IMG/VR virus record: IMGVR_UViG_3300046499_000185
Span: 1-39,595 of that record
Direction: 5' to 3' (one strand)
DNA: 39,595 bases
DNA from: a virus
Under the pieces are notes generated by a model. That model was not told the DNA's origin. It saw only the letters and a program-made list of their open reading frames with translations, and made no database searches. Position 1 is the first letter of the stretch; each line of letters begins with the position of its first letter. Both the position numbers and the translations under genes were made by a program. Shown here in pieces: positions 2,892 to 28,915 of the stretch.

Positions 2892-3230
2892 ATGTATGAA
2901 TATTCCGCTACCGTCCTCCGCTGGGTCGACGGCGATACCGTTGACCTCCGTGTCGACCTCGGCTTCAGGATGTTTGCGGAGACGCGCTTCCGCCTCTACG
3001 GCATCGACACCCCCGAACGGGGGCAGAAGAACCATGGGGAGGCGACCGCGCTCGCCAATACCCTCGCCCCGATCGGCGCAGAGGTGCACATCTCCACCTA
3101 CCCGGACGCCGACAAGTACGGCCGCTGGCTCGCCGTCATCACCAACGGGACCATGAGCGTCAACGACAGCCTCGTCGGTTCCGGCCTCGCCGTCCGCTAC
3201 TTCGGCGGGACTAAGGGCGTCGCAGTCTAA
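2892..3230 (+). CDS. Thermonuclease-like (SNase) protein
   Basis: This 112-residue protein is a compact match to staphylococcal nuclease-type proteins. Residues 13-16 are DGDT, 33-42 are FRLYGIDTPE and 74-80 are DKYGRWL. Residues equivalent to the catalytic Arg35, Asp40, Glu43 and Arg87 of the family are all present (R34, D39, E42, R78), so it should be active as a calcium-dependent nuclease. It has no signal peptide, so it acts in the cytoplasm. It sits between small and large terminase and overlaps the latter by one base. There is no good Shine-Dalgarno sequence before the ATG; a TAGCAT box 8 bases upstream may give a leaderless transcript. Confidence 0.85.
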   Translation: MYEYSATVLRWVDGDTVDLRVDLGFRMFAETRFRLYGIDTPERGQKNHGEATALANTLAPIGAEVHISTYPDADKYGRWLAVITNGTMSVNDSLVGSGLAVRYFGGTKGVAV

Positions 3231-4759
3231 TGGCGCCGCGGGCGAAACCGCTCGACCCGAACGAGTGGAAGAAGTGGGACCAGAAGTCCAAGGACAAGTT
3301 CCTCGCCCGGCTGATGGACGCCGAGCGGCCCAAGCGCGTCTGGTACTGCAAGCGCGGCCGCAGGTGCGACGGTAAGCCCCATCAGGGCTACGACTACCCC
3401 CACGCCCGCGGTGACCAGTGGCCCCCGGCCGGGACCAACTGGCTGACATGGCTCCTGAAGGGCGGGCGCGGCTCCGGCAAGACCCGCTCCGGCGCCGAAT
3501 GGGTGCGCTACATGTCCGGCCTCCACGAGCGCGGCTCCATCATCGGCCCGACTGTCGGGCACGTCCGTTCCGTCATGGTCGAAGGCGACTCCGGCCTGCT
3601 CGCCGTGTTCGCGAACGCCAAGGTGTCCGCCGTGTTCGAGCCGTCCAAACGGCAGATCACCATTCCCTGTGAGTGCAAGCCCGGCGGCATCCTGCCCCTG
3701 CACCTGAACGGGCACATCATCCAGCTCTTTACCGGTGACGAACCGGAGCGGCTCCGCGGCCCCCAGCACGCCTACGTGTGGCTGGACGAACCGGCCCACT
3801 TCAAGCTCATCGACGCGGTCTGGGACAACATGATGTTCGGCCTGCGCCTCGGCAAGCGCCCCGTCGTGCTGTGCTCCACCACCCCGCTCCCGACGAAGTG
3901 GATGAAGACCCTCATCGCCGAGGAGGACACCGTCTCCGTCACGGTCTCCACCTACGCGAACATGGACAACCTCGCCCCCTCCTTCAAGAAGGTGATGCTG
4001 AAGAAGTACGAGGGCACCCGGCTCGGACGGCAGGAACTCCACGGCGAGGTGCTCGACGACATCAAGGGCGCGCTGTGGACGTGGGCGATGATCGAGGAAG
4101 ACCGGGTCGTACCGAGCGTGGACGAGGAGGGCAACCTCGTCGGGGGCGTCACGAAGGAGGACATGGACCGCATCATCGTGGCCATCGACCCCGCGGGCAC
4201 CTCCTCGAAGAAACGTGACGAGACAGGCATTGTCGTGATCGGCAAGAAGGGGAACCAGTATTACGTCCTCGCCGACTACTCGGACCACTACACCCCGGAC
4301 GGCTGGGCGAAGAAGGCGTGGTACGCCTACGACCTGTGGGAGGCGGACCTGATCGTCGCGGAAAAGAACTACGGCGGCGAGATGGTGCTCTCCACCCTGC
4401 GGAACGTGCGCGAGGACGGCAAGGTCGACCTCGTCACCTCCCGGCGCGGCAAGGAACTGCGCGCCGAACCGATCGTCGGCCTGTACGAACAGCACCGGGT
4501 GCACCACACCGGCCTGTTCCCGGAGCTGGAACAGCAGATGTGCGAGTGGGTTCCCGGCGCTTCCGATTCCCCTGACCGGGTCGATGCGTTGGTGCATGGC
4601 ATCCAGAAGCTCTCGGAGGGTGGGGGTGCCGCCTCGGTGGCCATCCCGTCCGGCCCGATTGGACGCCCGCCGCTCGGAAAAGCCGGGGGCATTGGACGGC
4701 TTACTTTCTCCGATCTGGCCGACTCTGTCGCTTTACGCGGAGGACACAGCGCGGCGTAG
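3230..4759 (+). CDS. terL: Terminase large subunit
   Basis: This is a 509-residue packaging motor protein. The ATPase half has Walker A GGRGSGKT (residues 78-85) and a Walker B ending in YVWLDE (182-187), followed by the coupling segment LCSTTP (214-219). The C-terminal RNase H-like nuclease half has IIVAIDPAG (Asp320), LIVAEKNYGG (Glu378) and a final SPDRVDALVHGI. All key residues are intact. It forms a ring on the portal vertex, pumps DNA into the prohead and cuts concatemers. A Cys/Arg-rich segment near residues 40-48 is unusual but has no assigned role. The ATG overlaps the stop of the nuclease gene by one base. Confidence 0.96.
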   Translation: MAPRAKPLDPNEWKKWDQKSKDKFLARLMDAERPKRVWYCKRGRRCDGKPHQGYDYPHARGDQWPPAGTNWLTWLLKGGRGSGKTRSGAEWVRYMSGLHERGSIIGPTVGHVRSVMVEGDSGLLAVFANAKVSAVFEPSKRQITIPCECKPGGILPLHLNGHIIQLFTGDEPERLRGPQHAYVWLDEPAHFKLIDAVWDNMMFGLRLGKRPVVLCSTTPLPTKWMKTLIAEEDTVSVTVSTYANMDNLAPSFKKVMLKKYEGTRLGRQELHGEVLDDIKGALWTWAMIEEDRVVPSVDEEGNLVGGVTKEDMDRIIVAIDPAGTSSKKRDETGIVVIGKKGNQYYVLADYSDHYTPDGWAKKAWYAYDLWEADLIVAEKNYGGEMVLSTLRNVREDGKVDLVTSRRGKELRAEPIVGLYEQHRVHHTGLFPELEQQMCEWVPGASDSPDRVDALVHGIQKLSEGGGAASVAIPSGPIGRPPLGKAGGIGRLTFSDLADSVALRGGHSAA

Positions 4760-5120: not shown

Positions 5121-6980
5121 ATGGCACGGACCCGCAAGGCGGAGGTTGCTAAGCCCGCGAACACATTGGTGGCATCAGCCGCGCGAATGGACAGCGGCAA
5201 CGCCTTCAAGAACTTCTCCCGCATTGCGCGGTCGACGGCATGGCAGCCCGAGGCGTGGATTTTCTATCACACCATCGGCGAGTTCCGGTACGCCTGCGAC
5301 CTGCAAGGCTCCCTCATCAGCCGGGCCGTGCTGTTTGTGTCCCGCGAAGTCGACGGAAAGCCGGTCCCGGAACCGGGCGGCACTGCCGTCGACATCCTCG
5401 GGAACTTCTTCACCGACGCCGACGGGCGCGCGGAGATGCTCCGGCTCGCTGGCATCCACCTTGCCGTCGCCGGAGAGTTCTTCATCGTCGGCTACACCGA
5501 CCCGGAAACCGGGGAGGATGTGTGGCAGGTCGTCGCCGCGACCGCCATTAAGCGGCAGGGCGAGGACGGTCCGTGGTCCGTCAACAACATCCTCATCGAC
5601 GTGGACCCGGAGCGCGTTTACGTCAGCCGCATCTGGCGGCCGGACCCCGAGAACACCGAACTGGCGATGTCCCCGACCCGGTCTGTGCTCTCGATCCTCG
5701 GCGAAATCCACCGCCTCACCGAACACGTCGCCGCACAGGTCGACTCCCGCCTCGCCGGGGCAGGCATCCTCCTCATGCCCTCGGACATGCAGTTGCCGAC
5801 CCCGCCCGCCACCGACGGTACCGAAGCCCGGAGCGCGAGCAACGCCGACGAACTCATGGCGATCCTCCAAAGGGCAATGTCCGCGTCGATCCAGAACCGC
5901 GGCGACGCATCCGCCATTGTCCCCATCGTCATCACGGCACCGGCCGAGGCGATTGCCGCCGTCCAGCACATGACCTTCTGGTCTGAACTGGACGCGCACG
6001 CCATCGAACTGCGCACCGAAGCGATCCGCCGCCTCGCCCTCGGCATGGACCTCCCCCCGGAAATGCTCCTCGGCATGGGGCAGGGCAACCACTGGGCCGC
6101 GTGGCAGGCCGACGAGTCCGCGATCAAGGCACACTCCGAACCGCTCCTGAAGATCATCACCACCGCGCTGACCACCGGCTACCTGCGCTCCGTCCTCCGT
6201 GACGAGAAGGTGGCCGAGAATGAAATCCGCCAGCTCTCCATCAAGGCCGATACCTCCGACATGCGCCTGCGGCCCAACCGGTCCAAGGAAGCGATGGAGA
6301 TGTACGACCGGGGCGAGCTGTCCGGCAAGGCGTTGTTGCGCGAGACCGGCTTCGACCCGTCCGACGCGATGACTGACGACGAGCGCGCCGCATGGTTCCT
6401 GCGTAAGGTCGCCGCCGGGTCCACCACCCCCGAACTGGTCGAGGCCGCGCTCCGTGCGCTAAAGGTCCCGATCGGCGACATCCCCAAACCGGTCGACGCC
6501 CCGGCCGACACCACGACCGAGGCCCGGCCCGTCCCGTCGCTGAAGGACCACCCGGTGCAGGACATCCCGGACCAGCAGAAATCCGAGGACCGCAAGCAGG
6601 CCCGCGCCGAAGGCCGGGTCCCCTCCGCCGACATCGCCCGCAAGGCGTCCCTGATTGCCGCCGCCGACCAGATCGTGGTCCGGGCGCTGGAGCGGGCCGG
6701 GAACAAGCTGAAGAACCGGATGCAGGTGAAGCCGACATGCGCGGCCGCGGACATCTACAAGTTCGTCGCCATCGAGGGACAGGACGACGCCGACTTCCTG
6801 CTCTCCGACGGGTTCACCGCCCTGCCGGGACTCGCCGAACGGTGGGGCGTGGACGCGGGATTGCTCGGCGGGGCATTGGGCATTTATTGCTCGAACCTCC
6901 TCCGGCACCAGAAGGCCCACACCTATGACGCGCTGACTGCCGCCATCGAACACCTGACGACCTTGGAGAGTGCCGCATGA
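5121..6980 (+). CDS. Portal protein
   Basis: This is a 619-residue protein placed between large terminase and the MuF/protease gene, the usual portal position. It has the length and features of siphoviral portals: an N-terminal segment with a tryptophan-rich wing start (TAWQPEAWIFYHTIGEF), the stretch LAGIHLAVAGEFFIVGY, a long helix near IHRLTEHVAAQVDSRLAG, and the sequence LDLPPEMLLGMG-like (GMDLPPEMLLGMGQGNHWAAWQ is split here as GMDLPPEMLLGM then NHWAAWQ). It would form the 12-subunit ring through which DNA enters and leaves the head. The last 150 residues are charged and may reach into the head. The stop overlaps the next ATG (ATGA). Confidence 0.92.
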   Translation: MARTRKAEVAKPANTLVASAARMDSGNAFKNFSRIARSTAWQPEAWIFYHTIGEFRYACDLQGSLISRAVLFVSREVDGKPVPEPGGTAVDILGNFFTDADGRAEMLRLAGIHLAVAGEFFIVGYTDPETGEDVWQVVAATAIKRQGEDGPWSVNNILIDVDPERVYVSRIWRPDPENTELAMSPTRSVLSILGEIHRLTEHVAAQVDSRLAGAGILLMPSDMQLPTPPATDGTEARSASNADELMAILQRAMSASIQNRGDASAIVPIVITAPAEAIAAVQHMTFWSELDAHAIELRTEAIRRLALGMDLPPEMLLGMGQGNHWAAWQADESAIKAHSEPLLKIITTALTTGYLRSVLRDEKVAENEIRQLSIKADTSDMRLRPNRSKEAMEMYDRGELSGKALLRETGFDPSDAMTDDERAAWFLRKVAAGSTTPELVEAALRALKVPIGDIPKPVDAPADTTTEARPVPSLKDHPVQDIPDQQKSEDRKQARAEGRVPSADIARKASLIAAADQIVVRALERAGNKLKNRMQVKPTCAAADIYKFVAIEGQDDADFLLSDGFTALPGLAERWGVDAGLLGGALGIYCSNLLRHQKAHTYDALTAAIEHLTTLESAA

Positions 6981-9448
6981 TCCGCACCGCCACCCTCGCG
7001 CTGTCCACCGAGACGTTCGCCGCGGGCCGCAAGAAGTACCTCACCGACACTGACGGCCAGCTCCGACCGCACGTGAAGGACGCCCTACTCCGGCTGGGCC
7101 TGCCCGGCTGGGAAGGCCAGATCGTCAACGCCGCGCTCGACGTCTTCGACGTCACCGCCCGATCCGAGGTCGACGAATGGTCGCAGGTCCTCGACGACAT
7201 GCGGGACGCGTTCGCGCAGGAACTCGGCGACGCGCTGAAGAAGACGAAGGCCACCGCGAACCGGGACGCCCAGACCGACACCGTCACCCGCTGGGTCTCC
7301 ACCATGGCGGTGAACGCCGCGACCGAGGCGGCCACCACCGCCGACACCTCCGAGCATGTCGGGCTGGAATGGATCACCATGCACGACGACAGTGTGCGCT
7401 CCCAGCACAAGGAGGCCGAGGGGCAGACCGTCCCGACCGGCCAGCCGTTCACCGTCGGCGGCGAGCACATGTACTACCCGGGCCAGCCCGTCGGCGACCC
7501 GTCCAACTGGATCAACTGCCGCTGTGTCGCCCGGCCTACCATGCTCGAAGGCGACTCTGCCTCCATCACGGCCAGCGCCGATCCGCAGGACGGGGACGTC
7601 TCCACCACCTGTGTCATCGTCGCCCTGCCTGCCGAGAACGACCCGGTGTCCGCCGCGTCCTCCGAGGCCGACGGCGCGCACTGCACCCTGCTGTTCCTCG
7701 GGGACTGCTCCTCGCTGGACAAGGCTGAGCTGACCAAAGCGCTGGAAACCTTTGTTGGCAAGGGCGTCACGCCCATGACGGAAAACGTTTCCGGCCGGGG
7801 CACTCTCGGGAAAAACTCCGCCGACGTGGTGCTGATCGACGGCGCCTCACTGGTGAACATCCGCGACGGCCTGCTCAACATGGAGCCGATCTGGACCTAC
7901 TGGGAAGCGGTCGAGCAGTTCCCCACATGGGTTCCCCACGTCACCCTCGGCTATCCCGAAACCCCCGCCGCCGGGGACTTCTCCGGGGAGTCCATCACCT
8001 TTGACCGCCTCGCCCTCTGGTACGGCGAGGACCGCACCGCCATCTATCCCCTTGGAGAAACCATGAGCAAGACAGAAGCATCCGTCATCCACGCGGAAGA
8101 CGAGGCGTTCACACAGGAAGTCGCGGACGCCGCCGTTGAGGTGTTCGGCGGAACCGCCGGACCCGAATCCGTTCCGGTCCCATCCCCCGATCAGGAGCAG
8201 TTCGCGGAGGAAACCCCATGGCACGGCGTCCTCGCCCCCGAGGGCACTCCGTCCGGGGACGGCCGCCAGTTCGCCGCGGGCGCGCTGACCAACCGCGACC
8301 TGCCCCTGCCGCTGAAGGCCATGTTCGTCGACGACGAGGGCCACAAGGGTTCCGTTATCGTCGGCCGGATCGACAACATCTTCCGCGACGGCAACCTCGT
8401 CAAGGGCGAAGGCGTGTTCGACAACAGCCCCGAGGCCGACAAGGCGAAGGGCATGGTCGAGCGCAAGATGTGGCGCGGCGTGTCCGTCGATGTCGACGCC
8501 GCCGAGCTGTCCGTGGACGTGGAGGAGAACGACGCTCAGGTCACCGAGTTCTCCGCCGCCCGGATCGCCTCCGCCACCATGTGCGCGATCCCCGCGTTCG
8601 CCGAAGCCTACGTCGCCCTCGGCACGTGGGCCGACGCCCCCGGCAACGAGACCGCCCCGGAGGTGTCCCCGGACGCCCCGGTCGATCAGAAGATGGCGTC
8701 GGTGTCGCTGGTCGCCTCCGCCGCCCCGAAGCTCAGCGCCGACGCGTTCCGCAACCCCAACCTCACCGAGGAAACCCCGCTCACCGTCACGGAGGACGGG
8801 CGCGTCTTCGGGCACCTCGCCGGGTGGGAGACCTGCCACATCGGCTACGAGGTGTGCACCACCGCTCCCCCGTCGCTGACGGACTACGCCTACTTCCTCA
8901 CCGGTCAGGTCTTCACCGACGCCGGTCCCGTGGCGGTCGGCCAGATCACCCTTGGCGGCGGGCACGCCGACGGCCAGTTCGGAATCCGGGCCGCGGTTGC
9001 GCACTACGACAACACCGGCAACGCCGTTGCGGATGTGACCGTGGGCGAGGACGAGTTCGGCATCTGGTTCGCGGGCCAGCTCCGTGATGGCGTCAGCGAC
9101 AGGGACATCCACACTCTGCGCGCGACCGGCGTTTCCGGCGACTGGCGCGAGGTGCGGGTCCGCGGGAACGCGTCGATGGAACTGATCGCGGCCCTGTCGG
9201 TGAACGTGCCGGGCTTCCCGATCGCACGCTCCCGGGCAACGTACGCCAACGGGCGCCAGCTTTCCCTCATCGGCCAGCCTGTTCAGGCCCGCAAGGTTGA
9301 AGTTCTGGACTCCGCGTTCGTTGCCAAGCTCGACGCCTACACCGCCATGAAGGCGCGGGAGGCCAAGGTCAACAAGCTCCGCACACAGGTGCGCGCCGAT
9401 CTGGTCGCATCCATCAAGTCCGAAGTACAGAAATTGGGAGGCAAGTAA
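6977..9448 (+). CDS. MuF-like / 2H phosphoesterase-like / capsid maturation protease fusion
   Basis: This is an 823-residue protein with three parts. Residues 1-190 are MuF-like: WITMHDDSVRSQH at 132-144 and a terminal NWINCRC at 178-183. Residues 210-330 look like a 2H phosphoesterase: HCTLLFLG at 235-242 and HVTLGYP at 321-327 give two H-x-T-L motifs 86 residues apart, the spacing seen in LigT-type enzymes. Residues 412-550 are the capsid maturation protease type found in actinophages: WHGVLAPEGTPSGDGR, VGRIDNIFRDG and RGVSVDVD with Ser503 as candidate nucleophile. The remaining 270 residues are beta-rich and end in a coiled-coil. The MuF and protease parts would act in prohead assembly and maturation; the enzyme in between is unexpected and may be carried in the virion. 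Confidence 0.88.
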   Translation: MIRTATLALSTETFAAGRKKYLTDTDGQLRPHVKDALLRLGLPGWEGQIVNAALDVFDVTARSEVDEWSQVLDDMRDAFAQELGDALKKTKATANRDAQTDTVTRWVSTMAVNAATEAATTADTSEHVGLEWITMHDDSVRSQHKEAEGQTVPTGQPFTVGGEHMYYPGQPVGDPSNWINCRCVARPTMLEGDSASITASADPQDGDVSTTCVIVALPAENDPVSAASSEADGAHCTLLFLGDCSSLDKAELTKALETFVGKGVTPMTENVSGRGTLGKNSADVVLIDGASLVNIRDGLLNMEPIWTYWEAVEQFPTWVPHVTLGYPETPAAGDFSGESITFDRLALWYGEDRTAIYPLGETMSKTEASVIHAEDEAFTQEVADAAVEVFGGTAGPESVPVPSPDQEQFAEETPWHGVLAPEGTPSGDGRQFAAGALTNRDLPLPLKAMFVDDEGHKGSVIVGRIDNIFRDGNLVKGEGVFDNSPEADKAKGMVERKMWRGVSVDVDAAELSVDVEENDAQVTEFSAARIASATMCAIPAFAEAYVALGTWADAPGNETAPEVSPDAPVDQKMASVSLVASAAPKLSADAFRNPNLTEETPLTVTEDGRVFGHLAGWETCHIGYEVCTTAPPSLTDYAYFLTGQVFTDAGPVAVGQITLGGGHADGQFGIRAAVAHYDNTGNAVADVTVGEDEFGIWFAGQLRDGVSDRDIHTLRATGVSGDWREVRVRGNASMELIAALSVNVPGFPIARSRATYANGRQLSLIGQPVQARKVEVLDSAFVAKLDAYTAMKAREAKVNKLRTQVRADLVASIKSEVQKLGGK

Positions 9449-9746: not shown

Positions 9747-11414
9747 ATGGGTAAGTTCAAAGCCCCTGAAGACATCAAGGCACTCGACACGGCCGCACTC
9801 GCCGCCGCTGTCGATGAAGCACTCGCCGAGTTCGCCGAGTTCGCCGACATCCCCGATGCCGAAGTAACCGACGAGCAGTTCGCTGAACTGCGCACCCTCG
9901 GCGACTTCGCCAAGGCCGGTCGCGCCGAGCTGGACGAGCGTCAGGTGGCCTCCGAGGCCCGCGCCGCCGAACTGGCCGCACTCCGCGGCGAGCTGGCGAT
10001 GAAGCCGAAGGAAGGCTCCCCCGCCGAGGAAGCGGACGAGACCCCCGCCGAGGAACAGGCCGAGGACGAGAAGGCCAAGAAGGCCGCCGCTCAGGTCGTT
10101 GAAGCTTCCGCCAAGCGCACCAGCTTCGCCTCCAAGGCCGCTTCCGCCTCCGTCGCCCCGAAGGCTCCCGCCAAGCGCGGCTCCCTCACCGCGGCCGCCG
10201 AGGTTTCCGGCTACGCCACCGGCCACAAGTTCGAGAACTTCTCCGACGCCTCGTCTGCGATCCTCTCCAAGCTTCAGTCGATGCCGACCGCGATCCCGAA
10301 CCACCAGTCCCGCGCTGGCATCCTCGTGATCGACTCCGCACAGTCGGAGTTCACGCAGGCGAACCCCAACTTCCAGAACCGCGACCTCGAACTCCTGCTC
10401 GCCGCGGGCAAGGAATCCAGCCTGAAGGGCGGCTCCCTCGTGGCCGCCGGTGGCTGGGGTGCGCCGTCCCAGATCGCGCTCGACTTCTGCGAACTGGAGA
10501 ACGTCGACTCCCTGATCCAGCTCCCCGAGGTGACCATCACCCGCGGCGGCGTCCAGTACACCAAGGGTCCGACCCTCGCCGACGTGCTGGGTTCCGCCAC
10601 CGGTTTCTGGGACATGGATGAAGCGACCGCCGAGGCGGGCACGGAGGAGAAGACGTTCCTGCGTCCGTCCGTTCCGGGCTTCGTCGAGAAGCGCCTGAGC
10701 GCCGTGGGCATCGGCCTCGAAGCCGGCCTCCTGCTCCGTCAGGGCTGGCCCGAGGTCATCGACCGTCACGCCACCCTGCTGACCGTCGCGCACCAGATCA
10801 AGATGGCCCGCAAGTCCATCCAGCTCATTCAGGGCTTCACGGGTGCGGCCACCGCGATCAGCAACGCCTTCGGCAACGCGTTCGACATCTTCCACATCCT
10901 CGAACTGCTGGCCGTCGGCGAGCGCCAGCGCCTCTCGATGTCTGTGAACCAGACCCTCGAAGCACTGATCCCGCACTGGGTGAAGGCCGTCGTCCGCGCC
11001 GACCTCGCCCAGCGTCAGGGCGTCGACACCCCGTCCGTGACGGATGCTCAGATCGACTCCTACCTGACCGCCCGCGGCATCAAGGCGCAGTGGATCACCC
11101 AGTATCAGGAAATCCCGCTGGACCCTACCACGGGTCTTGCGCTGTCCTACCCCGACACCGTCGAGGTCATCTTCTACCCGGCCGGTTCGTTCGTCCGTGG
11201 TGTTGCGCCGGTCATCCAGCTCGACACCATCTACGACTCCACCAACCTGAAGAAGAACGACTACCTGCACCTGTTCATGGAGCAGGGCGTTCTGATGACC
11301 AACCCGTGCGGCGACGGTCACCGCGTTTCCTTCCCGCTCTACGCCAACGGCCGCCGCGCCAACGTGCAGGGCACCGACGCTAACGACAACCTGTTCAACG
11401 CTCCTGTCGCGTAG
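9747..11414 (+). CDS. Major capsid protein with N-terminal scaffolding domain
   Basis: This is a 555-residue protein with a clear AGGAGAG ribosome site. Residues 1-165 are Ala/Glu/Lys-rich and predicted helical, like the delta or scaffold domain removed by the maturation protease. The rest is a capsid-type fold: a long loop region, the spine-helix-like LLRQGWPEVIDRHATLLTVA, KMARKSIQLIQGF, and a C-terminal beta part with VEVIFYPAGSFVRGV and DTIYDSTNLKKNDYLHLFME. The length is that of HK97-fold capsid proteins with a fused scaffold. Its position after the protease agrees. It forms the icosahedral shell. Confidence 0.92.
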   Translation: MGKFKAPEDIKALDTAALAAAVDEALAEFAEFADIPDAEVTDEQFAELRTLGDFAKAGRAELDERQVASEARAAELAALRGELAMKPKEGSPAEEADETPAEEQAEDEKAKKAAAQVVEASAKRTSFASKAASASVAPKAPAKRGSLTAAAEVSGYATGHKFENFSDASSAILSKLQSMPTAIPNHQSRAGILVIDSAQSEFTQANPNFQNRDLELLLAAGKESSLKGGSLVAAGGWGAPSQIALDFCELENVDSLIQLPEVTITRGGVQYTKGPTLADVLGSATGFWDMDEATAEAGTEEKTFLRPSVPGFVEKRLSAVGIGLEAGLLLRQGWPEVIDRHATLLTVAHQIKMARKSIQLIQGFTGAATAISNAFGNAFDIFHILELLAVGERQRLSMSVNQTLEALIPHWVKAVVRADLAQRQGVDTPSVTDAQIDSYLTARGIKAQWITQYQEIPLDPTTGLALSYPDTVEVIFYPAGSFVRGVAPVIQLDTIYDSTNLKKNDYLHLFMEQGVLMTNPCGDGHRVSFPLYANGRRANVQGTDANDNLFNAPVA

Positions 11415-25321: not shown

Positions 25322-28300
25322 GTGTCCATGCAACACCCCCGGGACCTCCGGGAATGGCAGAAGTTCGTCGAACGTGAACTGAAGGAAGCCCGCCGGAGCG
25401 GCTCGACCCTCGCACTGGCCGCCGCCGAAAAGACCGCGGCCGACTTCACCGACGCGCTCAACCAGTACAAGGGTCTGGTCCCGGCCCCGCCGATCGAGAT
25501 GAACTACCAGACGGCGGTCTACACCGACATGCGGGGATTCCAGCGGGCGCGGCTCATCGCGGACTTCCCGGACGTCGTCTTCGCCATGACCGGCGAGGAC
25601 ATCAGCGTCACCTCGTACGAACTCTCCGGCCAGCTACAGGGCACCGACCCGGCCGGTCCGTGGCAGACCCTCGCGTCCTCCTCCGAGTCCTCCTTCTATG
25701 TCAACGGCTTCATCCCCGGGGAGCAGTGGAGCTTCCGCATCCGGGCGGCCAGGGGCACCTTCGTCCAGTCGGGCACGTGGTCCGAGGAAACGCTGGTCAC
25801 CTTCGTCGAGGACACCACCCCGCCGCCGATGCCTTCGGACCCGGTCGTCACCACCACGCTCGGCACGACGAAGGTCGCGTGGGACGGGAAGGCGACCGGC
25901 GGCGCGGACATGCCGATCGACTTCGACCACATCGACATCGCGTTCGGCCTCGCCACCGCGCCGACGGACATCATCGACACGCTCGCGTACGCCGGGTTCA
26001 TCATGGTGCCGAAGTCCGCCTACAACACCCCGCACTACTTCCGGTTCCGTGCCGTGGACACGTCCGGGAACATCGGCCCGTGGTCCGTGCAGGCCACCGC
26101 CATCCCCGTCCCGCTCGTGGACGAGGACCTGATCCTGTCCGAAATCGACGCCGCGCACACCACCATCATCAACATCGGCGGGGACGCGATCCTCGACGGC
26201 GCCATCCTCAACGCAAAGCTGGGCGACAACGCTGTCACGCAGGCCAAGCTCGCCCAGACCATTCAGGACAACATCGCCTCCGGCGTCGGCGCGGCCAACG
26301 CCATCCCCGGGATCAACACCAACATCAGCTCCCTGCAAACCTCAGTAAACGGCAAGAACACCATCTCGCGGCAGACCACGACACCTCTGGTCACCGCAGG
26401 GTTCGTCAACGGGGACCGCTGGGAACAGTGGTCCACGCTCGCGGCAGGCGGGAAACTGCTCGCAACGTGGCGGTTCGACGGCACCCAGTGGCTCGCCGAA
26501 TCCATCGACCCGACCTACCTGCCGCAGGTGGACATCGGGTCGGGCACCTTCGGCTCACTCAACGGTTCCCGGCTGGTCACCGACAGCGTCGGCGCGAAAG
26601 CCATCATCGTCGGGGACTTCACGAACCTCGCCATCGGCTCCGACTTCGAGGACGCGACGGCGGTGCCGTGGACCCTCGCCGGAACCCACACCCTCTCCAC
26701 CACGCAGAAGAAATCCGGGACCACGTCACTGCGCCTCGCCCCGGTCGCCAGCTCCGCCAACCCGGACAAGTCCGTCTTCACCGGGGACATGCGGGTCAAG
26801 GAAGCCGAGCAGTGGTACTTCCGGCTACAGGGCTACGTCGACGCCACCTTCAACGGGGCGACGAACACGAAGCTGAGGATCGGGGACCAGAACAACACCG
26901 CGCTGGGCACCATCACCGTCACGGGAATCACCCCGGCGACGTGGACCATGCTGGATGCGACGGTCACCGTCCCGGCCGGGGTCACCTCGCTGACCGTGCA
27001 GTTGTGGAGCGACAACACCGCCGGGTACGCCTACGTCGATGACATCCAGATCAGGCGCGTCTCCGAGCCGTCGCTGATCCAGAACCTCGGCGTGGAGAAG
27101 CTGACCGCGTCGACCGCGTCCATGGGACAGGCCGTCATCGACAAGCTGTGGAGCGACGTCGTGAACTCGCGGAAGATCACCACCTCGATGCTGTCCGTCT
27201 CGGACATGACCAACTTCGCCCCGTCCTACCGGGACTCCCCGAACGACTGGTCGATGGACGGCGGGATGACGAGCGGCACGACCGGCATCGCGGCGTCCGT
27301 GGACGGCTACCGGTTCACCTCCATCGCCAGCTCCGGGTCCTCCCGTGCGCTGGGACCGATGCAGTTCGTCCGGCCCGGCGACGAACTCTACGGCGAGGGC
27401 ACCGCATACCGCGGCGGCGGCCCGTCCACCGACGCGATTTACGTCCGCTACTACTTCTACGACAAGAACAAGGCGTACATCACCAGCGGTGGCACCGAGC
27501 TGGACGGCTCCGCGCAGATCAACAACCCGGCGTCCGGGGCGACGGGCAAGATCAAGGCCGTCGTGCCCTCTGGGGCCATGTACGCCCGCATCGTCGGCAC
27601 GATCAACAACACCACCGGCGCGGACCTCGGCATCTACAACATCCGCGGCTACCGCCGGACCGGCACGGTACTGATTCAGGACGGCGCGGTCACCGCCTCG
27701 ACGATTGCGGCCGACGCGGTCACCACCTCGGCCATCAAGGCGCTCGCGATCACCTCGGCGAAGATCGACGTGAACACCCTCACCGCGGACACCGCATGGA
27801 TCGGCACCCTGCGCGGCGGGGTCCTCATCACCGATGCCGTGACGACGTCGATGCTGAAGGCGGACGCGATCACCGCCAAGCACACCATCACGGGTGCGAC
27901 AATCCAGACGACGACGACCGTGAACCGCGGCCTGAAGATGACCTCGACCGGATTGCAACTGTTCGACGCCACCGGGACAAAGACCGTGGACCTGAACGCG
28001 AGCACCGGCTATGCCACGCTCACCGGACGGTTGCGGACCGCCGCGGACGGCAATCCCGGCGCGGTGCTGATCCCTCCGGTGGAGTCCGATGACGGCAGGA
28101 CCATGGCGCTGTGGCTCGCCGCGGACGTTGCGTCGCTGGTCGGCGGCGTCACCGCCGGTGTGTGGATGTCCAACCCGGCAACGTCGTCCACGGCGGGCAA
28201 GATCAACATTCGCGGCCAGCAGTACGGCGGCATCACGCTGTGGGACGGGGTGGAGTTCGCCACGAACACCGCCTCACTGCCGCAGTTCTTCTCCAACCAC

Positions 28301-28915
28301 GGCGCGGGCCTACAGATGACCGCGTACAACGGCACCCTCTACATGGCGGGGTCCGGCGGTGAGGCCCGGGTCAGCGCGCTCTACAACGTGGTGATCAACC
28401 CCGGCGGCACCAAATACTTCAACATGCTCCGCGGCGGCGTGGCGTACAACGCCTCCATCTCCAACGCGGCAAACCTGTTCCTCCAAACCGACGGGAACGT
28501 CTTCAAGTCCACGTCGGCCTCGAAGTTCAAGATTCTCCCGGAGGTGATGAGCCTCGATGACCGGCTCCTCGATGAGGTCGCGGTCAAGGACTGGATCGAC
28601 AAGGGCAGTGCCGAGCGGTACGCGGACACCTTCAACCAGCCCCGGCCGTGGACGGAACAGCAGGACCGGGAGTTTCAGGCGCTGAGCATTGCCCGCGTCC
28701 CGGGCGCGATTGCCGAGGACGTGGTGGCGGCCGGGGGCGAGGCGTTCGTCGGCCGTGATCTGAACGGGGAGCTGGAGTCGCTGATGTATGAGCGGCTCGC
28801 GCTGGCCCGGACGGAGATTCTGAAGCACCGGGTCGCGAAGCAGGCCGACAGCATTGAGTACCTGCTGGAGAAGGTCGCGGAGCTGGAAGCGCGCCTCAAC
28901 GCACTACCGGCCTGA
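25322..28915 (+). CDS. Large minor tail protein with fibronectin-like, sugar-binding-like and S74 chaperone domains
   Basis: This is a 1197-residue protein starting with GTG (ATG at 25328 is an alternative); GGAAGG precedes it. Residues 60-260 contain fibronectin-III-like strands ending YFRFRAVDTSGNIGPWSVQA. Residues about 425-580 and 600-790 are two beta-sandwich parts resembling carbohydrate-binding modules (FEDATAVPWTLAGTHTLS, YAYVDDIQIRRVS). Helical and receptor-binding parts follow. Residues 1060-1197 match intramolecular chaperone (S74) domains: SASKFK at 1065-1070 and the later GAIAEDV, ending in a coiled coil. The domain helps the trimer fold and is cut off. It is the best candidate for host binding. 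Confidence 0.82.
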   Translation: MSMQHPRDLREWQKFVERELKEARRSGSTLALAAAEKTAADFTDALNQYKGLVPAPPIEMNYQTAVYTDMRGFQRARLIADFPDVVFAMTGEDISVTSYELSGQLQGTDPAGPWQTLASSSESSFYVNGFIPGEQWSFRIRAARGTFVQSGTWSEETLVTFVEDTTPPPMPSDPVVTTTLGTTKVAWDGKATGGADMPIDFDHIDIAFGLATAPTDIIDTLAYAGFIMVPKSAYNTPHYFRFRAVDTSGNIGPWSVQATAIPVPLVDEDLILSEIDAAHTTIINIGGDAILDGAILNAKLGDNAVTQAKLAQTIQDNIASGVGAANAIPGINTNISSLQTSVNGKNTISRQTTTPLVTAGFVNGDRWEQWSTLAAGGKLLATWRFDGTQWLAESIDPTYLPQVDIGSGTFGSLNGSRLVTDSVGAKAIIVGDFTNLAIGSDFEDATAVPWTLAGTHTLSTTQKKSGTTSLRLAPVASSANPDKSVFTGDMRVKEAEQWYFRLQGYVDATFNGATNTKLRIGDQNNTALGTITVTGITPATWTMLDATVTVPAGVTSLTVQLWSDNTAGYAYVDDIQIRRVSEPSLIQNLGVEKLTASTASMGQAVIDKLWSDVVNSRKITTSMLSVSDMTNFAPSYRDSPNDWSMDGGMTSGTTGIAASVDGYRFTSIASSGSSRALGPMQFVRPGDELYGEGTAYRGGGPSTDAIYVRYYFYDKNKAYITSGGTELDGSAQINNPASGATGKIKAVVPSGAMYARIVGTINNTTGADLGIYNIRGYRRTGTVLIQDGAVTASTIAADAVTTSAIKALAITSAKIDVNTLTADTAWIGTLRGGVLITDAVTTSMLKADAITAKHTITGATIQTTTTVNRGLKMTSTGLQLFDATGTKTVDLNASTGYATLTGRLRTAADGNPGAVLIPPVESDDGRTMALWLAADVASLVGGVTAGVWMSNPATSSTAGKINIRGQQYGGITLWDGVEFATNTASLPQFFSNHGAGLQMTAYNGTLYMAGSGGEARVSALYNVVINPGGTKYFNMLRGGVAYNASISNAANLFLQTDGNVFKSTSASKFKILPEVMSLDDRLLDEVAVKDWIDKGSAERYADTFNQPRPWTEQQDREFQALSIARVPGAIAEDVVAAGGEAFVGRDLNGELESLMYERLALARTEILKHRVAKQADSIEYLLEKVAELEARLNALPA

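Follow-up and report, generated by a model that had tools for sequence, protein, structure and literature searches.

A 2H phosphoesterase domain as an apparently exchangeable module of a viral MuF-protease head protein

Profile searches, conservation among relatives and structure prediction confirm that the 823-residue head protein of an actinobacterial virus contains, at residues 209-361, a 2H phosphoesterase domain whose catalytic motifs are intact and whose enzymatic activity is predicted. The protein is encoded by a virus fragment from IMG/VR, which we analysed over its whole length of 39,595 bases (hereafter the window). As judged from sequence comparisons, the domain is an accessory module that has been gained, lost and moved among related viruses. 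We propose, at a probability a little under one half (about 0.45), that it is an exchangeable cargo of the head protein, which would be packaged, delivered into the host and there hydrolyse a phosphodiester alarm signal made by that host.

The genes for the terminase large subunit (TerL), the portal, the 823-residue head protein and the major capsid protein follow one another in an Arthrobacter-type siphovirus arrangement, and the nearest named phages are the Arthrobacter phages AWGoat and SilentRX, with 77% identity across 14-16% of the window's first 25 kb. The features on which the following discussion relies are these:

3230..4759, + strand: terminase large subunit gene, TerL (Pfam Terminase_6N, 2e-16)
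5121..6980, + strand: portal protein gene, overlapping the MuF-2H-protease gene by 4 bases (PHROG 776, 7e-150)
6977..9448, + strand: head protein of 823 residues, composed of MuF, 2H, S78-type protease, second protease-like domain and C-terminal helix (open reading frame, profiles and model)
6977..7549, + strand: MuF portal-binding part, residues 1-191 (Pfam Phage_Mu_F match at 97-185; PHROG 2468)
7550..7600, + strand: low-confidence linker before 2H, residues 192-208 (pLDDT <50)
7601..8059, + strand: predicted 2H phosphoesterase domain, residues 209-361 (profiles, conservation, fold)
7679..7687, + strand: catalytic motif 1, H235-C-T237 (H and T invariant in 60 relatives)
7937..7945, + strand: catalytic motif 2, H321-V-T323 (H and T invariant in 60 relatives)
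8060..8206, + strand: low-confidence linker after 2H, residues 362-410 (pLDDT <50 at 362-409)
8207..8644, + strand: S78-type prohead protease domain, residues 411-556 (weak Pfam S78 match at 456-547; fold; S503 invariant)
8729..9286, + strand: second conserved domain, residues 585-770 (head-maturation-protease PHROG 18402; AHYDNTG...SGDWR motifs)
9747..11414, + strand: major capsid protein gene (PHROG 777, 1e-137)

The MuF part was matched by PF04233 at E 3.9e-6, with 28.0 bits against a cut-off of 29.6 that relatives exceed (43.5 and 31.6 bits), and by PHROG 2468, head morphogenesis, at 2.3e-19; the gene sits directly 3' of the portal gene. In the full-length model the 2H domain forms a well-predicted bead between the low-confidence linkers 192-208 and 362-409, and residues 409-563 fold like herpesvirus maturation proteases and T4 gp21 (Z about 10). 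The C-terminal domain, residues 585-770, has no Pfam match; its motifs (GGHA...AHYDNTG...SGDWR, with H676 and S720 invariant) make it look like a second S78-like protease lobe. The first-pass annotation had placed a 2H-like domain inside a MuF/protease head protein, and this is indeed the layout, 2H lying between MuF and the S78-type protease. The interval then given, 7605-7965, was right as to location and too short as to extent, the domain running from 7601 to 8059. Elsewhere in the window, the last 130 residues (1040-1173) of a large tail protein (25322-28915) match PHROGs 1786 and 19653, both named minor head protein.

The identity of the domain rests first on its motifs. HCTL (235-238) and HVTL (321-324), 86 residues apart, stand exactly where they had originally been reported and are the sole HxT/S-hydrophobic motifs in the 823 residues. 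Two HxT/S-L motifs spaced by 60-110 residues arose in 0.1% of shuffles of the whole protein. Conservation is stronger evidence than this statistic: none of H235, T237, H321 and T323 varies among 60 aligned relatives, and the family carries a conserved signature of its own (SSE, RGxLG, QxPxWxPHxTxGYP and FDR). Searched alone, the window domain matched Pfam 2_5_RNA_ligase2 (PF13563) at 0.0026, with 18.3 bits, below the gathering cut-off of 27 bits; its matches to 2H-SAK (0.0051) and LigT (0.026) were likewise under the curated cut-offs, and PHROG 2659, 'RNA ligase', was matched at 4.9e-9; the 2H matches cover roughly residues 224-333. Seven relatives pass the 27-bit cut-off of 2_5_RNA_ligase2, reaching 41.1 bits at most. 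Against the PDB, the family profile gave the avian poxvirus cGAMP phosphodiesterase as its top match (E 1.3e-6), with archaeal LigT-like proteins at about 1e-5, and in the profile alignment both motifs fall on the HxT sites of PH0099.

The predicted structure agrees with this assignment. A comparison with LigT, CPDase and Acb1 had been put forward in the first-pass annotation as the way to check the LigT-type 2H reading; the AlphaFold model of the domain (mean pLDDT 90.4, pTM 0.84) has the bilobal 2H core, and about 140 of its residues superpose on those of solved 2H enzymes at Z 12-13. The best match is TT0787 (1iuh; 143 residues aligned, 3.1 A, Z 13.1), and about 140 residues are also aligned with Arabidopsis cyclic phosphodiesterase (Z 12.9), YjcG (12.9), Usb1 (12.1), E. 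coli LigT (11.8) and rotavirus VP3 (11.4). A chance occurrence of the motifs is ruled out by conservation, model, fold matches and shuffles together, and a decayed domain in the window virus by the intact motifs and the conserved homologues.

The resemblance to the phage anti-CBASS protein Acb1 that had been raised at the outset holds for the shared 2H fold; however, sequence and predicted fold are nearer to LigT/CPDase. Indeed, Acb1 aligns over fewer residues (Z 9.1), as does the poxvirus enzyme (Z 8.6-8.8), and the Acb1 profile reached E 0.19. The Pfam family (PF23474) gave no match to the window at E 1, and one distant relative matches it weakly (0.0033). That the domain is Acb1 itself is ruled out by the missing profile match in the window and the lower fold similarity.

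The fold matches admit other substrates. The Arabidopsis enzyme (1jh6), which is in the top three with 21% identity, acts on ADP-ribose 1'',2''-cyclic phosphate (Appr>p), and a metabolite of this kind, from NAD or tRNA-splicing chemistry, might be the substrate here too. However, several other 2H enzymes tie with 1jh6, and we noticed no Tpt1/KptA or NAD genes in the window, which leaves a metabolite substrate very improbable. An attack enzyme, an RNase resembling Usb1 that cuts host RNA upon entry, has Usb1 among the best fold matches in its favour and is one of two proposals made by Iyer et al. 2017 (PMC5512222). Yet the identity to Usb1 is just 7%, the fold similarity is tied with that of LigT and a toxin/immunity arrangement was not seen, and we regard this role as unlikely.

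The healing of RNA ends deserves more weight. Here the enzyme would act early in infection, opening the 2',3'-cyclic phosphates left where defence nucleases have cut tRNAs of the host or the phage. The closest profile family is TIGR02258, RNA 2',3'-cyclic phosphodiesterase (16 of 19 members match it, the best at 6.3e-9), the top fold matches are LigT/CPDase-type enzymes and many relatives are annotated 'RNA ligase'. However, the curated cut-off of TIGR02258 is far off (17.2 versus 65.7 bits), and healing requires a ligase partner, whereas neither an RNA ligase nor a polynucleotide kinase nor a tRNA is annotated in SilentRX between 3.0 and 65.2 kb, and the window is without tRNA. Iyer et al. 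2017 likewise found no case in which 2H versions of this kind were linked to an RNA ligase (PMC5512222). Simple RNA repair is less favoured because of this missing linkage and of the missing partners in SilentRX, and appears rather unlikely to us. We rank the destruction of a nucleotide alarm first and RNA-end healing second; what counts against the alarm reading is that the domain is nearer to LigT/CPDase, which process RNA 2',3'-cyclic ends, than to Acb1.

Relatives are widespread in actinophages. Tblastn found them in 140 phage records (Gordonia, Microbacterium, Arthrobacter, Streptomyces, Rhodococcus, Curtobacterium and Mycobacterium), and 205 came from IMG/VR, of which 80 were kept; two scans of GTDB contigs, made to find relatives in prophages of bacterial genomes, yielded none. 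Their architectures, assigned with profiles built in this analysis, are varied. The window shares MuF-2H-S78a-S78b with most Arthrobacter and Microbacterium relatives, and MuF-S78a-2H-S78b occurs in two others (L067 and L068). The Gordonia phages Phinally and GTE6 have S78b-2H, Curtobacterium phage Kithara has 2H-S78a-S78b without MuF, and Microbacterium phage Rasputia has portal-2H. In Rhodococcus phage ReqiPoco6, Gordonia phage Kenosha and Streptomyces phage Rainydai, a gene next to TerL encodes 2H and, after it, a DUF7211 motif. In two contigs (L005 and L037) portal, MuF and 2H share one 1014-aa open frame cut by the contig end, which suggests a portal-MuF-2H fusion, or else a frame error.

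This 2H domain is present in many actinophage genes named 'RNA ligase', frequently inside a head-protease protein. The name is probably misleading, and no ATP-dependent ligase domain was found in the relatives so labelled that we scanned; this suggests that, for many of these genes, 2H phosphoesterase domain of a head protein would be the better annotation. Mass spectrometry of virions has been published for the Gordonia phages GTE6, GMA2 and GMA6 (PMC4524720). A 'phosphoesterase' seen by mass spectrometry in virions of Thermobifida phage P318 was set aside as a parallel, since its gene lies in a replication cluster and no link to 2H was shown.

The DUF7211 motif, HYGVKGMKWGVRR, recurs within a contig, where several ORFs in the neighbourhood of TerL and portal bear it (L117, L116, L201, L212 and L216). 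It follows 2H domains, and it flanks a GNAT acetyltransferase in Streptomyces phage Bilo (L116) and in L201, where the flanked acetyltransferase adjoins 2H. The window has no such motif, and the string KGMKWG was not mentioned in the literature that we searched. The motif may be a head-targeting tag. A broader reading, plausible though doubtful, is that one 2H lineage is a mobile cargo on at least five actinophage head carriers (MuF-protease, protease, portal, combined, and the DUF7211 gene beside TerL) and that HYGVKGMKWGVRR targets its carrier to the head as the MuF fusion does.

How freely does the domain come and go? In a search seeded with the C-terminal protease-like domain only, MuF-S78a-S78b ORFs were found 34 times without 2H and 11 times with 2H in the slot between MuF and S78a; empty slots mostly measure 27-76 residues. 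On a tree of the C-terminal domain, built from 62 rows by a quick method and showing long branches, the presence of 2H changes at least 13 times, and the best-supported branches force 4 of these changes. When relatives without 2H were searched for a different named enzyme in the MuF-S78 slot, nothing convincing came up apart from a divergent 2H and an intein-like insert. Three contigs (L132, L134 and L135) have a gap of 397 residues between MuF and protease, with a weak match to an intein splicing domain (5.8e-5, below the cut-off).

The most direct view of an exchange, here an exact replacement of 2H, is given by L043 (4326-7373) and L127 (ORF from 2730). Their DNA is 92% identical up to the last MuF residue; 2H then follows in one and a disordered linker rich in Ser, Ala, Thr and Pro in the other, after which the DNA is again 83% identical, although both are assemblies of one metagenome, with some chance of an assembly artefact. 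No remnant of 2H was detected at the swap site in any frame. From this swap and from the relatives lacking the domain, the head protein therefore appears able to work without 2H.

These comparisons also bear on a structural or assembly role of 2H in the head, with enzyme activity incidental. In all MuF-fused relatives 2H does belong to the head protein. However, close relatives lack it or have a disordered linker in its place, 2H is found on unrelated carriers and the catalytic residues never vary, so that we hold a structural role to be quite improbable. Of five close pairs, four show a dN/dS for 2H above those of MuF and the two protease domains (0.24-0.65 versus 0.14-0.45), and the fifth shows one above those of the protease domains, not of MuF; the catalytic residues are fixed despite these higher values. 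This fits an accessory effector, and relaxed constraint would give the same pattern.

We return to the packaged enzyme hydrolysing a host alarm, with which the free gain, loss and movement of 2H fit. An enzyme domain fused to MuF within a head gene cluster, as found here, is the arrangement of the packaged MuF effectors, or polyvalent proteins. SPP1 gp7, a MuF protein, is targeted by the portal into the procapsid, is dispensable for assembly and helps to start infection (PMC6316719). By our proposal, the MuF part would bring the protein to the portal, within the procapsid; head maturation would fall to the prohead protease domains on that chain, which could also release 2H at the disordered linkers; and the enzyme would enter the host with the DNA or just after it, to hydrolyse a host-made phosphodiester, for example an alarm signal in the form of a cyclic or 2'-5' oligonucleotide. 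Packaging, release, injection, substrate, benefit and anti-defence role are all inferred here. If packaged, 2H would be at work before any phage gene is switched on, a timing well suited to countering defences that rely on rapid nucleotide alarms. Nature already supplies a near-identical pair for comparison, one virus with 2H and one lacking it; the domain is also present in cultured phages of Arthrobacter and Microbacterium, so that packaging and function can be tested directly.

Among known systems, the LigT/TIGR02258 enzymes (E. coli LigT, TT0787 and PH0099) share the two HxT motifs and the bilobal 2H fold (Z 11.8-13.1). The window domain differs from them by its 15-19% identity in structural alignment, its place in a head protein, its score below the family cut-off and its own signature. 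Acb1 of phages T4 and FBB1 has the same fold and an HxT/HxT tetrad (PMC9117128), but is a stand-alone protein of lower fold similarity, whereas the window 2H is a head-protein domain. The avian poxvirus 2H enzyme (9bkq/9ciw), which cleaves cGAMP (PMC11410667), gave its top profile match around the second HxT motif; it too is a stand-alone protein, from a eukaryotic virus, and its fold similarity is below that of LigT.

Another parallel is that of Microbacterium phages Percival and Goodman, where MuF is fused to a VIP2 toxin domain that their close relative Floof lacks (PMC7302621). There too an enzyme domain rides on MuF in the same host group, but VIP2 is an ADP-ribosyltransferase and not a 2H enzyme; in the passages that we found, the MuF-protease fusion of cluster EG is described without mention of a 2H domain (PMC7302621).

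Finally, the idea of a packaged MuF-2H or portal-2H effector is already published. Iyer et al. 2017 reported fusions of 2H to the portal or to MuF, for which they suggested a role as RNase or in degrading signals (PMC5512222), and a 2022 survey repeats the proposal and argues for packaging and injection (PMC9503650). We did not find described the placement of 2H inside MuF-protease chains, the natural swap or the move onto a DUF7211-tagged carrier, as these appear from our sequence comparisons. What the published fusions share with the present protein is a 2H domain on a head protein and a proposed function, namely packaging, injection and the breakdown of RNA or nucleotide signals. Here, however, 2H is placed after MuF and ahead of a prohead protease of two domains, and in the relatives it lies between or after protease domains, on portals and in the DUF7211 gene, with a near-identical pair to document its apparent exchange.
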